This document shows, piece after piece, positions 32,073 through 44,208 of a stretch of DNA of 44,251 nt. Made by a program: the position numbers and the translations under genes. The stretch comes from Pacificibacter marinus (GTDB taxonomy: Bacteria; Pseudomonadota; Alphaproteobacteria; Rhodobacterales; Rhodobacteraceae). How positions within the stretch are numbered: the stretch's first letter is position 1; each line of letters opens with the position of its first letter. Below the pieces are notes generated by a model. It was given only the letters and a program-made list of their open reading frames with translations, had not been told where the DNA came from and did no database searches. The DNA lies in NCBI RefSeq assembly GCF_018860505.1, contig NZ_JAHKPU010000014.1, positions 1 through 44,251 of the forward strand. The letters are read 5' to 3'.

Positions 32073-32501
32073 TGTCAGCTTTGCAATTCTCATAGATCGC
32101 GCCTGCATACTGTATTTATCTGATCCTGTGCCGAACCATTCGACATTCTCAAAGAACCGACATGGGCGATTTCGGGAAAGCAAGCTGCTATGTCACCTGT
32201 TTAAGATTTTGCCGCTTAACAGAAGATTTGATGTAAATCAATGGGACAAGGCGCACTTCAGGGCTGACTTCGAGCGGGATAATTTCTCTTTTTAATGGCT
32301 TTGATCAAACCCACTGTGGCACATTACGCTTCTGACAGGAGTGGTATCCAGCCCATCATCTTAGCATGCAGTTCAGTTTTGCCGAACCACTGCACATGCT
32401 CGCGTTTAACGCCTGAGAAATAGGCCCCCTACTCATTTCACTAAATGTTGTCAGCCGTGAGAATAGCAACCCATTCACAGCGCAGACCGCTTGAAACTGC
32501 T

Positions 32502-36249: not shown

Positions 36250-36676
36250 AAGTGATCCAGCAAAGCTGGACAGCGTGCTAAAATGTATCCAACCTTGAAG
36301 ATAGGATACAGAAATGACGCAGAGACGCAGTTTTTATTTCTAGGCCTTAAACGAGGCCATCGCAAAATACCTTTCTTGTGCATTCTTCGCATACCCTGCC
36401 AGGCAATGGGCAAGCCCGAGATTATGACCGATCAGGGATCACAGTTCACGGGGGCTGCATGAATTGGAGGACGGGTTCCAAGCCAAACGCGTGATCAAAG
36501 ACTGGATCAGGTTCTACAACACTGAGCGACCACACACAGTACTCAATAAACGATCGCCTAACGACGCATTCTTCAACACAGAACCAACCCAAAGGCGGCA
36601 TGAAACCAACGAGATTACATCTAAGCTAAGCCGCAAAGCTGTCCTAAAAATTAGGACCACTTCAATACACACATGA
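36250..36676 (+). pseudogene. IS3-family transposase remnant, internally deleted
   Basis: A start of orfA (MTQRRSF, about 36314) runs into a stop within ten codons. Further on are pieces of the orfB integrase core (GKPEIMTDQGSQFTG, about 36410-36457) and its C-terminus (IKDWIRFYNTERPHTVLNKRSPNDAFF, 36464-36676) in shifted frames. The bulk of the transposase between them is gone. A TGTATCC/GGATACA inverted pair precedes it. It is a decayed copy and not mobile by itself. Confidence 0.75.
36381..36408 (+). repeat. Truncated small palindromic element in an IS3 remnant
   Basis: Begins CATTCT and ends CCTGCCAGGCAATG, matching the ends and right half of the 41-44 base elements in the IS3 copy at 41255-42785. 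The central hairpin is missing. The terminal bases (CATT/AATG) still pair. Confidence 0.45.
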
Positions 36677-41183: not shown

Positions 41184-41410
41184 TAAGTATCTGAAATTAT
41201 ATCTCTTTAATTTCTTTGAACCTGTCACGCTTTCGTGCCGCCCCAAGTGCTCGTTTAAGCCACTTTCTTTTCGAAAGCGACGGGGCTTTTCCAGCCCAGT
41301 GCTGAGTGGCGGCGGCGCGGATTTACGAGGCCATTGATGTATTCAAAGATTGCCATCTCAGCTTTCCGTCTTGTCTCCCAAGGATGCCGCCAGATCAGTT
41401 CAGCCTTGAT

Positions 41411-41424
41411 CACTGCCTGACAGG
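41411..41424. repeat. Partial palindromic insert (14 bases)
   Basis: CCTGTCAGGCAGTG (minus strand), identical to the end of the 42613-42653 element, sits between AAAACC and ATCAAGG of the transposase gene, which is continuous without it. Confidence 0.55.
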
Positions 41425-41439
41425 GGTTTTGAAGAAGGT

Positions 41440-41484
41440 GAGGAGGATCAGAAAACAGTCTGGGAGACTGTTTTCCCGACGCAA
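41440..41484. repeat. Palindromic insert, TCTGGGAGA-core type (45 bases)
   Basis: Contains a perfect ten-pair hairpin GAAAACAGTC/GACTGTTTTC with loop TGGGA (41451-41475). Inserted after GCAGTC of the transposase gene. Homologous to the 42400-42444 insert. Confidence 0.7.
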
Positions 41485-41498
41485 GACTGCCGCGTTTT

Positions 41499-41554
41499 GC
41501 GCCTTTGAATGATCTCCCAGATCATTCAATCCGCTGGCGCGGACCAACTTAAAC
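41499..41554. repeat. Palindromic insert, TCTGGGAGA-core type (56 bases)
   Basis: Perfect ten-pair hairpin TTGAATGATC/GATCATTCAA with loop TCCCA on the plus strand (41505-41529), the same core as its neighbour but in opposite orientation. Its removal restores NCYENAAV in the transposase. Confidence 0.7.
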
Positions 41555-41836
41555 TCATAGCAATTTCCTTTGCCGCTCATCGATACCTTGAAGCCGTGCT
41601 TGCGTAGGATTTTCTGGTAATCGTGGGAACAGTATTGCGACCCACGATCCGTGTGATCGATACAGCCTTTTGGTGGTTTCCGGAACGCGATGGCCATATT
41701 CAACGCTCGGATTGCTAAATCGCGTTTTATTCGATTGCTTACAGCCCAGCCGATCACGCGCCTGGAATACAGGTCCAAGATGACCGCTAGGTACAACCAT
41801 CCTTCACGTGTCCAAATGTAACTGATGTCACCTGCC

Positions 41837-41877
41837 TGTTATCTGACAGGGTATTGCGCAGCAATGTCCCGAGAAGG
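41837..41877. repeat. Palindromic insert, CTCGGG type (41 bases)
   Basis: Minus strand CCTTCTCGGGACATTGC... with stem ATTGC/GCAAT and loop TGC. Its removal rejoins NQKW with AGDISYIW of the transposase. Confidence 0.8.
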
Positions 41878-42079
41878 CATTTCTGATTGGGCGCATCAGA
41901 GTTGAAGTCACGATCCAGCAGGTTCGGTGCGATGTTGAACTTATGATTGCTGCCTGTGGTCACCTTATGTTTGCGGGCTCTGACGACGGATATGCCATTC
42001 TGGCGCATCAAACGACCGATACGGCGGTGACCGACATCCAAACCGATCTCTTTCAGTTCTTCCGTCATCCGTGGCCTGC

Positions 42080-42122
42080 CACTCTCGGGACATTTCCTAC
42101 GGAAATACCCTGCCGTGCAGTG
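42080..42122. repeat. Palindromic insert, CTCGGG type (43 bases)
   Basis: Plus strand CACTCTCGGG...GCAGTG with stem ATTTCC/GGAAAT, loop TAC, and complementary ends CACT/AGTG. Its removal restores LGSYGRPRMTEE. Confidence 0.85.
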
Positions 42123-42327
42123 CATAACTGCCCAAGCTGAGACGGGATTGCTCTTTGATATGCGCCAACGTCACCATATCAGATCGCTGCCTGCGGTTGG
42201 CTGGGCGGTTACGGAACGCCCGTAAGCCGCGCGCGCTGACACCAACGACATCGCACAGGCGATTAGTTGGAAAGCTGGCTCTATGTTCTTCGACAAACCT
42301 AAATCTCATTGCTTTAGGCGCAAAAAA

Positions 42328-42371
42328 CTGCCCTCTCGGCAGATTACTACGTAATCGCCTGCCGGGTAATA
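42328..42371. repeat. Palindromic insert, CTCGG type (44 bases)
   Basis: Contains CTCTCGG, then GATTAC/GTAATC with loop TAC. Sits just past the A6G frameshift run, between KKAT and FFAPKAM of the transposase. Confidence 0.8.
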
Positions 42372-42399
42372 GGTGGCTTTTTTCAAGATCTCCCTCTTT

Positions 42400-42444
42400 C
42401 ACCGGGCAAGCCGTCCCCCAGACGGTTTGCATATCCGGATCAAG
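42400..42444. repeat. Palindromic insert, TCTGGGGGA-core type (45 bases)
   Basis: Minus strand: GCAA-A-CCGTC/GACGG-C-TTGC hairpin with loop TGGGG. Aligns without gaps over about 35 bases with the 41440-41484 insert, with paired changes in the arms. Its removal restores RLLKEKREILKKAT. Confidence 0.7.
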
Positions 42445-42545
42445 TCCTTGAGAAGACGGTTCTCGCGTCGAAGTCAATCATTCTCTTGAGCCAGTCCCAA
42501 ATCCTCTTTCGACACCACATCCGTGCCGCGATGTGCTGTGATCTT

Positions 42546-42586
42546 TCGCATGCGTGCACTGACCAGTGGCGCTACACATGCTCAAT
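42546..42586. repeat. Palindromic insert, third type (41 bases)
   Basis: Inner hairpin CACTG/CAGTG with loop GT inside an outer GCATG/CATGC stem. Same length as the CTCGGG type but unrelated sequence. Its removal joins MSTLN to KITAHRGTD. Confidence 0.65.
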
Positions 42587-42612
42587 GTTCAGCGTCGACA
42601 TGCCAACGCCCA

Positions 42613-42653
42613 CCTTCTCGGGACATTGCTGCGCAATACCCTGTCAGGCAGTG
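42613..42653. repeat. Palindromic insert, CTCGGG type (41 bases)
   Basis: Identical to the 41837-41877 copy over the first 35 bases. Stem ATTGC/GCAAT, loop TGC. Its removal restores QVADDLGVGMSTL. Confidence 0.85.
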
Positions 42654-42741
42654 GGTCATCGGCAACCTGCTTACGCGTCAGCCCACGGGTCAGTGCGATC
42701 CGCACCGCATCTTCCCGGAATTCGTCCGTCCGTTTCAGTCC

Positions 42742-42782
42742 CACTCTCGGGATCATGCTGCGCATAACCTTGCCGCGCAGTG
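42742..42782. repeat. Palindromic insert, CTCGGG type (41 bases)
   Basis: CACTCTCGGG...GCAGTG with stem ATGC/GCAT and loop TGC. Sits directly after the orfA start codon; without it the gene reads ATG then GLKRTDEFRED. Confidence 0.75.
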
Positions 42783-42809
42783 CATAGTCAGTCTCCTTTG
42801 TTGATGGCG

Positions 42810-44208
42810 TGGATGCCCCCGACCAACCGGCATCGTAATGTGCCACTATGGTGTTTCAGAAAGCATCAACAAAGGGAGAGTATCCATGTCAGAAGTCGCC
42901 ATGATCGGCATAGACCTTGCAAAGCGTGTGTTTCAACTTCACGGGGCTTGCGCCAATGGAACGGTTATTTTTCGCAAAAAAACTGACACGCATTCAGCTT
43001 CTTGCGTTTATGAGCAAACAGCCGGAATGCACTGTTGCGATGTAGGCTTGTGCGACTGCGCATAGCTGGGGCCGTGAGTTTGAGAAGCTTGGACATACTG
43101 TGCGATTGATTGCGCCTAACTACGTGAAGCCTTTCGTCAAACGACAAAAGAACGATGTTGCAGACGCCGAAGCCATCGTTGAAGCGGCATCACGGCCAAC
43201 CATGCGATTTGTAGAACTAAAGTCCGAAGCCCAGCAGGCGCGGGCCATGCTGTTTCGTACACGACAGATGTTTGTCGGTCAGCGCACCCAAACGATCAAC
43301 GCGTCGTGTGATTAGCACGCCTCTTGCGTGACGCGCGGCCATCTAGCTGAACACGGAATTGTTGCGCCACAAGGTGCCATCCAGGTCAAACGCTTGGCCG
43401 ACGCAGTTGAAGATGAGAACATTGGCTTGCCAGCGGGCGTTCGAGAACTCGCCAAAGTATACCTCGTCCAGATCGAAGATCTCAGTGCTAAAATTGCAGC
43501 TCTGGATCGACAGATGAAGGGCGCCGCCAAAGAAGCTGAAGCGGCACGTCGCGCTCAGACCATGCCGGGCGTGGGGCCAATCACGGCTTTGGCCATAGAA
43601 ACCTTTGCGCCTGACCTGAACTGCTTTCGCCGAGGTCGGGATTTTGCCGCATGGCTGGGTTTGGTCCCCAAGCAGACCTCGACTTGCGGCAAACCTCGCC
43701 TTGGTAAGACCTCAAAGATGGGCCAACGCGATATTCGACGGCTGCTGATATCCGGTGCAATGGCCGTTCTGCAGGCCGTTAAGCGCTTTGGAAAACCTCA
43801 TAACGATTGGTTGATCTCCATGTTGGAACGCAAACCCCGTATGCTGGTCGCCGTTGCATTAGCGAATAAAATGGCGCGTGGCCTGTGGGCTATGGTGACA
43901 AAGCAAGAAGACTACCGAAACCCGGCAGCGATGTCATAAGCGCAATGCGACGTACATCAAAACCCGGGACTTGAGTGTGTGAGGAGATCGAAGGACAGTA
44001 AGGGAAAATGATCGGAAAGATCCGGACCAGAAAAAACAGTTTCACTGCAGGAGCCAATGAGCTCGATTTGTTGATCTGTCTTTGGTTCGCGCATCGCCAT
44101 ACCGGCCCGTGGCTGTATCAACCGCTGCAACGAGAGGCCTGATACATGACCGCATCCGATCACACGCTCAAACCGTTCAGAAATCTCTTGCACCAATGGG
44201 GGCATCCA
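42810..44208 (+). mobile_element. IS110/IS1111-type insertion sequence, decayed
   Basis: Bounded by an 11-base inverted repeat TGGATGCCCCC (42810-42820) and GGGGGCATCCA (44198-44208), consistent with the subterminal repeats of the IS1111 subgroup; the true ends may lie slightly outside. It encodes the transposase pseudogene 42886-43939, followed by about 260 noncoding bases. It abuts the IS3 copy. Confidence 0.65.
42886..43939 (+). pseudogene. IS110-family transposase with three lesions
   Basis: DEDD-type transposase. The first Asp is in GIDLAKRVFQ and the Asp pair in KNDVADAEAI (about 43150-43170). A good C-terminal domain is also present (MPGVGPITALAIETF, FAAWLGLVPKQTSTCGK, QRDIRRLLISGA). 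Lesions: a one-base frameshift at an A7 run near 42976-42984; GAG to TAG at about 43038, exactly at the codon of the catalytic Glu; and roughly 28 extra bases with a stop near 43308-43335. GGGAGA precedes the ATG. Not functional by itself. Confidence 0.85.

Follow-up and report, generated by a model that had tools for sequence, protein, structure and literature searches.

Small hairpin-forming elements, here called family A, are found across Rhodobacterales, mostly in transposase genes of many insertion sequence (IS) families, and the same nucleotide and strand are reused in different IS copies by elements with different stems. The inserts break their host genes, and most interrupted copies are dead. 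The explanation that we tentatively favor, at a probability of about 0.48, is that family A consists of non-autonomous REP-like hairpins, which would be placed site- and strand-specifically in transposase genes by an enzyme acting in trans and would then hitch-hike on the IS copies that they have crippled.

Results

An interrupted IS3 copy and its intact relatives

The window, that is, the whole stretch of 44,251 nucleotides analysed here, is one contig (C16) of the 3.65-Mb genome of Pacificibacter marinus. Near its end lies an interrupted IS3-family copy, with pieces recognised in a profile search by the rve (integrase core) and HTH_21 models (Table 1). Three uninterrupted relatives on Rhodobacterales plasmids (L074, CP049029; L075, NZ_CP081283; L076, CP070881) represent the empty state and share 74-77% DNA identity with the window copy, counted over the matched parts only. 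Aligned with the intact 1231-bp IS3 of Phaeobacter inhibens (L075), the window copy has nine inserts of 38-57 nt and one 14-nt remnant, and alignment finds none of its inserts in the three relatives. A first-pass annotation, made from the sequence alone, had proposed tiny palindromic insertions in this transposase gene and comparison with uninterrupted relatives as a check; the insertions are confirmed. The lengths that it gave (41, 41, 41, 45, 44, 43, 41, 56, about 45 and 14 nt) become 41, 41, 38 (aligned as 25+13), 45, 41, 43, 41, 57, 42 and 14 nt in the alignment. Its statement that excision restores the protein is true in part only: an in-frame TGA in orfA (reference position 252) and a 2-nt deletion lie outside the inserts. 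Likewise, a family of tiny palindromes with covarying stems does exist, but the annotation had pooled at least three kinds of element, since five inserts and the 14-nt remnant belong to family A, three are hairpins of a family B, and one is of a third kind.

Table 1. The interrupted IS3 copy, its inserts and one further family A match in the window
Feature	Position	Strand	Reference site and occurrence elsewhere
Interrupted IS3-family copy (orfA/orfB)	41217..42800	-	Right terminal repeat present in the alignment, left none seen
Family A insert, 41 nt	42744..42784	+	Site 64; G010 has one too
Family A insert, 41 nt	42616..42656	+	Site 151-153; G010 has one too
Third-kind insert, 38 nt net	42544..42585	-	Site 181-185; similar insert at same site in own C1 copy and L066
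Family B hairpin insert, 45 nt	42400..42444	-	Site 284; same site in own C1 copy and G010
Family A insert, 41 nt	42332..42372	+	Site 311; near-same element at same site in G074 copy L046
Family A insert, 43 nt	42082..42124	+	Site 520; same site in C1, G010, L057 and L107
Family A insert, variant tail, 41 nt	41837..41877	-	Site 724; same site in C1 and G010
Family B insert, 57 nt	41499..41555	-	Site 1005; same site in C1 and L053
Family B insert, 42 nt	41440..41481	-	Site 1022; C1 has one too
Family A remnant, 14 nt	41411..41424	-	Site 1037; complete 41-nt element there in G010
Weak family A match	36370..36410	+	Within another IS3-type transposase remnant, much decayed (36256-36640)

A related copy on contig C1 of the same genome has inserts at several of these sites, and the alignment finds no site-311 insert in it. 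The core CTCGGGACATTGCTGCGCAAT, with up to three mismatches, occurs twice in the window and in none of 100 shuffled windows (0 matches). An Rfam scan of the window returned tRNA and nothing else. Other IS debris is present. An IS110-type transposase remnant (42804-43939, with Transposase_20 on 43328-43939) adjoins the interrupted IS3, its first part apparently broken by small changes, and a short IS1182 transposase remnant lies at 32104-32208 (74% over 35 residues). At insert 2 the C1 relative (L009, C1:3000-12500) passes into a different IS3-like sequence, and the junction looks as if recombination had crossed over at the hairpin.

Family A is a structured element

The family A consensus is CCCTCTCGG...CCGGGCARTG. 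For the analysis of structure, sequences were chosen from the loci of the collection scans by their constant ends only (CCCTCTCGG ... CCTGCCGGGCARTGGAY). Among 77 distinct variable cores, 60 have a perfect stem of at least 5 bp, whereas 200 rounds of shuffling gave 2.1 on average and never more than 7. Where the core has its commonest length (46 cores), each stem pair shows two to four Watson-Crick types, except the loop-closing pair, which shows one, and the A at core position 2 is constant in 45 of the 46, without a covarying partner. Conserved unpaired motifs are set against freely covarying stems: TCTC 5' of the hairpin, a bulged A and CARTG at the 3' end. The CTCGGG motif, 3-nt loop and covarying stem that the first-pass annotation had described are real for family A.

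The triplets at the two ends of the hairpin include, among 232 sequences, CCC/GGG (116), CAC/GTG (7), CCT/AGG (7), ACC/GGT (6) and GCC/GGC (3). Their covariation is seen by eye and the formal shuffle test is weak, the set holding false matches: for starts other than CCC, 180 of 297 cells pair, against a shuffled mean of 162.9 (sd 6.4, maximum 182). Taken singly, family A copies also have weak free-energy z-scores (-0.25 to -3.45), and the window copy at site 64 is predicted to fold otherwise. The evidence for the structure is therefore covariation, not stability, and family A is a real structured element. A structure that is kept while its paired letters are free to change is as expected of something read as a folded single strand. 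A further small element, of the form CCATTG..GTCC..GGAC..CAATGG..GGACAA with overlapping, pseudoknot-like pairings, was seen in L045/L152, L054 and L131; its position is nearly the same in two species (site 779-782).

Family A lies mostly in transposase genes

A covariance model built from 15 family A copies (R1) has at least 31 matches at E <=1 in the P. marinus genome (150 of 1864 candidates scored). The units also occur elsewhere, as the first-pass annotation had supposed of a replicated family: 12 matches with at most two mismatches were found in the same genome, and R1 matches in at least 112 of 295 genomes of the family (21 candidates scored per genome). All 31 own-genome matches were found at transposase sequence. 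In 29 of 30 loci transposase homology is present at the element, with the whole locus used for ten loci cut by contig ends, and the result is the same with the elements masked; directly beside the thirtieth element (C8:42115) lies a stretch of 75 bases that matches an annotated IS3. The thirty-first is the weak window match in Table 1. The hosts include several IS3 groups, IS1182 and IS110 (one weak match). In one locus (L012, C22:447-3040), a first-type IS3 is split by a second IS3 type that carries family A, a case of nested decay.

In a sample from the family, transposase homology or domains were found in 23 of 29 loci (one of them, L126, at 22% identity), a phage integrase in one and neither in five. 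The wider scan covered, among the matches listed, 120 genome stretches and three virus contigs, and location was tested for 102 elements at least 300 bases from a locus end, with 1213 random positions in the same loci as controls. Transposase homology lies within 250 bases of 87 of the 102 elements and of 57 of the 1213 controls (P = 2e-80, Fisher's exact test), with a query set that included Pfam-confirmed reading frames beside the elements, which hold element letters. The counts are unchanged (87/102 and 57/1213) when recognised elements are masked, and are 60 of 102 against 53 of 1213 when the queries are restricted to transposases annotated in public plasmids. Four more elements were placed by Pfam (IS5, IS21 twice, IS3), giving 91 of 102 at transposases. 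Seven of the other 11 have a common longer flank (L188, L190, L193, two in L205, L216, L283), two are transposase-like by eye only (L229, L288), and L236 and L270 are the remaining two. The elements in the common flank have longer cores, and no transposase was found in those loci; the two copies in L205 are 991 bases apart. The earlier suggestion that one IS had acted as a trap is not supported, as elements were found in several IS families of many species and in little else.

Among 80 titles listed, one is Enemella (Actinobacteria) and one an alphaproteobacterium, and the rest are by name Rhodobacterales. The Enemella evansiae record (L237) has a family A element and IS5-type sequence resembling L112, and reflects either transfer or contamination.

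The same nucleotides are used repeatedly

Junctions were examined in an alignment of 33 copies of the window's IS3 type with the reference. The joins are clean, the same positions are reused across copies, and insertion is mostly without loss of host bases. Comparison of empty and filled sites gives no clear target duplication of the kind left by miniature inverted-repeat (MITE-type) elements, with at most about 2 bp of ambiguous microhomology. The 3' side of the target is GA in 28 of 60 elements (GA was not part of the query), and the base left of the element is C in 42 of the 60; the figure for all elements, GA in 98 of 153, is biased because the genome scan pattern demanded GGAY. The element thus prefers C^GA(Y) as its target. 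C^CATA sites are also used, where the tail is mostly GTGCARTG (in two IS types). A second IS3 type is hit in a like manner, and at one of its sites four copies have the tail GGTCARYG; tail variants go with sites.

Site 353 is filled in nine copies from six genomes (G032, G151, G010, the P. marinus C1 copy, G288 and G222), always on one strand and by at least four unlike stems; the G032 alignment is shifted by 3. In a tree of 31 copies, which recombination may disturb, the carriers of this site are not one clade (six changes; AU test, P = 5.7e-5), where rows labelled as without insert are those with no insert of at least 34 nt and include L066 with its third-kind insert. The carrier L135 falls in a starred group with six insert-free rows. 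Local similarity in the 25 bases that follow site 353 is 0.65 among carriers and 0.63 between carriers and non-carriers, and overall no excess of it among carriers is found at sites 353, 520 and 1005. Such an excess, on one or both sides, is present at sites 311, 284 and 1037 and, less clearly, at 64 and 779. At site 311, for example, carriers resemble each other at 0.92 and 0.91, where carrier and non-carrier reach 0.84 and 0.82, and the corresponding values to the right of 1037 are 0.96 and 0.86. Part of the sharing of sites may therefore be due to descent or gene conversion.

Among pairs of elements with different stems in hosts of less than 88% identity, positions agree to within 1 nt in 17 of 35 pairs on the same strand and in 0 of 13 on opposite strands. 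One of the 12 same-site groups (L108/L112/L237) was rejected as an element, being IS5-like coding sequence; with its pairs (at most three) removed the excess stays, at 14 of 32 against 3 in 195.

Interrupted copies are mostly dead and have moved

In pairs of intact copies, third codon positions take 74-76% of the changes. Four copies in genome G151 have four to six inserts in common, and their differences are even over the codon positions in five comparisons (3,2,4; 6,5,5; 7,5,9; 6,5,5; 10,6,4). Since all four also have a +1 indel, these copies must be dead. The third-position share is 50% between the window and C1 copies and 64% between the window and G010 copies, which is a mixed history; the G010 copy has a TAA. 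An annotated gene of S. pontiacus (1129 nt) is 41 nt longer than that of S. dubius (1088 nt), with orfB in another frame. L157 (NZ_CP081119, 35650-36778) bears the annotation of an IS3 transposase, yet a 41-nt insert puts its orfB in a different frame.

The G151 copies lie at different places; three are full length with terminal repeats, and one has a 3-base direct repeat (GCT). Two G032 copies are 99.5% identical with four inserts each, and one of them is flanked by the 3-bp repeat CTT; such a repeat was not found at three of the five interrupted copies checked (L296, L141, L144). Near-identical interrupted copies, and copies at several places with the same inserts, indicate transposition after the insertions, and we infer that the interrupted copies moved most simply by a transposase supplied from elsewhere. 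Between the G032 copies, six of the seven differences are in the gene and four of these six at positions 1 or 2. One G032 copy, L063, has four inserts with no stop and no gap columns, and its private changes give a ratio of 0.14, apparently constrained (0.05-0.38 in rows without long inserts). This is read as recent insertion; it does not by itself exclude function, and a small doubt stays with it.

The reuse of single nucleotides, the existence of several element families and the transposition of interrupted copies go beyond what the first-pass annotation had described.

Discussion

Comparison with known elements

Small hairpins inside genes are known from several systems. Rickettsia palindromic elements are small palindromes within protein-coding regions and are said to be translated in frame, whereas the window's family A inserts, of 41 or 43 nt, shift the frame. 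The first-pass annotation had likened the inserts to both Rickettsia palindromic elements and REP-type repeats; the features do resemble REP hairpins, and the Rickettsia likeness is loose, since most inserts throw the host gene out of frame and are not translated along with it. The byp elements of Magnusiomyces mitochondria, short hairpins scattered in genes, are skipped in translation, whereas the transposase genes interrupted here look dead by several signs. Cyanobacterial small dispersed repeats are similarly tiny hairpins that show compensatory changes and insert into other elements; to our knowledge they are not restricted to transposase genes, unlike family A, which is mostly found there. 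Integron attC sites have R' and R'' boxes (GTTRRRY and its inverse), none of which was seen by eye in the elements. IS200/IS605 elements have two ends. The strand and site specificity of family A, its preference for GA and the lack of a clear duplication would fit HUH mobilisation of this type, but family A has a single hairpin and uses C^CATA sites, and the P. marinus genome has no PF01797 match.

A close parallel is with REP sequences. GTAG REPs, associated with TnpA-REP (RAYT), are also imperfect hairpins of 20-40 nt in many copies, with a bulge and a conserved 5' tetranucleotide (PMC8266576 and PMC3733652, in the excerpts available), and their dinucleotide site is chosen in a guide-like manner (PMC8266576, same excerpt). 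Family A differs in having no GTAG at the hairpin end and in lying at transposase sequence, where REPs are mainly extragenic; moreover, most carrier genomes lack a PF01797 (RAYT) match. CGTC REPs, which include Rickettsia RPE-4/6 and dRS3, are small palindromes with variable stems, common in alphaproteobacteria without a dedicated transposase, and the available part of PMC3733652 reports their association with transposase genes as fortuitous only. Compared with the description in that text, family A has neither a CGTC (TGTC, CCTC) end nor a CCA tail, and the same part of PMC3733652 makes no mention of Rhodobacter or Roseobacter. One family B copy starts with CGTC. A title-level literature search for such elements in Roseobacter, Rhodobacterales, Sulfitobacter or transposase genes found no earlier description.

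A possible mechanism

Family A, and probably family B as well, would be non-autonomous micro-elements of about 37-57 nt, and their active form may be a folded single-stranded hairpin. An enzyme acting in trans, with a logic like that of HUH transposases, would read the hairpin and a short adjacent guide, and variants of tail and guide may choose the target site. The insert would kill the transposase while the IS ends stayed usable, so that the transposase of another copy could move the interrupted IS and carry the hairpins to new places.

The TnpA-REP of E. coli needs the bulge and the 5' tetranucleotide, and complementarity to the latter sets the cleavage dinucleotide; when the guide GTAG is changed to GTAC, cleavage takes place at GA and GT (PMC8266576, in the excerpt available). 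By analogy with this rule, the TCTC 5' of the family A hairpin would predict GA; C^CATA sites do not fit a simple guide rule. A profile search for the Y1/HUH transposase domain (PF01797) gave 0 matches in the P. marinus genome and none in 91 of the 112 element-bearing genomes of the family. Among the 30 genomes that have PF01797, 21 carry family A, which is more than expected by chance (P = 2e-4) and could come from IS load alone. Run over 12 Y1 loci, R1 gave one strong match, in L300; the search for a parent IS with element-like terminal inverted repeats covered these 12 loci. That a dedicated, still active system of Rhodobacterales plants the hairpins at guide-chosen sites in transposase genes, as a transposon parasite or a control device, seems to us distinctly unlikely.

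Alternative explanations

The pile-up in transposases could be explained if hairpins insert anywhere but persist in dead transposase genes alone, where they are tolerated. Most interrupted copies are dead, the differences between recent copies show no codon bias, and long reading frames that a bacterium can spare are otherwise few, all as such a neutral process would predict. Spacers should tolerate such hairpins too, as REP-type repeats are mostly extragenic (a point taken partly from the excerpt of PMC3733652 and partly from general background), and all 31 own-genome matches nevertheless lie at transposase sequence, in a genome with only 11 rve matches. We consider this explanation unlikely, and judge in the same way a history of few ancient insertions that descent and short tracts of gene conversion carried to other IS copies, under which same-site elements would not be independent. 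The unusual tails common to a site (311, 724, 520), the local likeness of carriers at 311, 284 and 1037 and the mosaic look of the window and C1 copies all agree with the latter history, and the tree could be misled by recombination. It has to contend, however, with the unlike stems in the nine copies from six genomes at site 353, with the rejection of a single clade of carriers and the grouping of L135 with six insert-free rows, and with the lack of clear extra similarity among carriers at 353, 520 and 1005.

Removal or skipping of the inserts at the level of RNA or the ribosome, intron- or byp-like, would leave the transposases working. Some copies with several inserts, such as L063, do lack any other stop or gap, and the private changes of L063 look constrained. 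Read-through or splicing was set aside on the strength of stops, indels and codon positions, with a small doubt left by L063: the window copy has its TGA and 2-nt deletion, the G010 copy its TAA and all four G151 copies the +1 indel, the G151 differences are even over codon positions, four differences between the G032 copies fall at positions 1 or 2 (six of seven being in the gene), and elements occur in both orientations. This reading is accordingly very improbable. Hardly to be believed, finally, is that a host system plants the hairpins in transposase genes as a means of transposon silencing. The bias to transposases of unrelated IS families, the precise sites and the inactivating outcome are what silencing would look like, but 183 of the 295 family genomes have no family A match (21 candidates scored per genome), and hitch-hiking on moved IS copies favors a selfish element. 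Non-autonomous hairpins placed by an enzyme in trans stay our tentatively preferred reading.

Significance

Small palindromic repeats are an old puzzle, and how they move and choose their places is mostly unexplained. Here the insertions are many, precise and repeated, relatives show the sites still empty, and the structural code is clear, so that mobility and target choice become testable. A bias to the transposase genes of different IS families, if true, would give mobile DNA a new niche, and would account in part for the way in which IS copies die yet spread as passive carriers.
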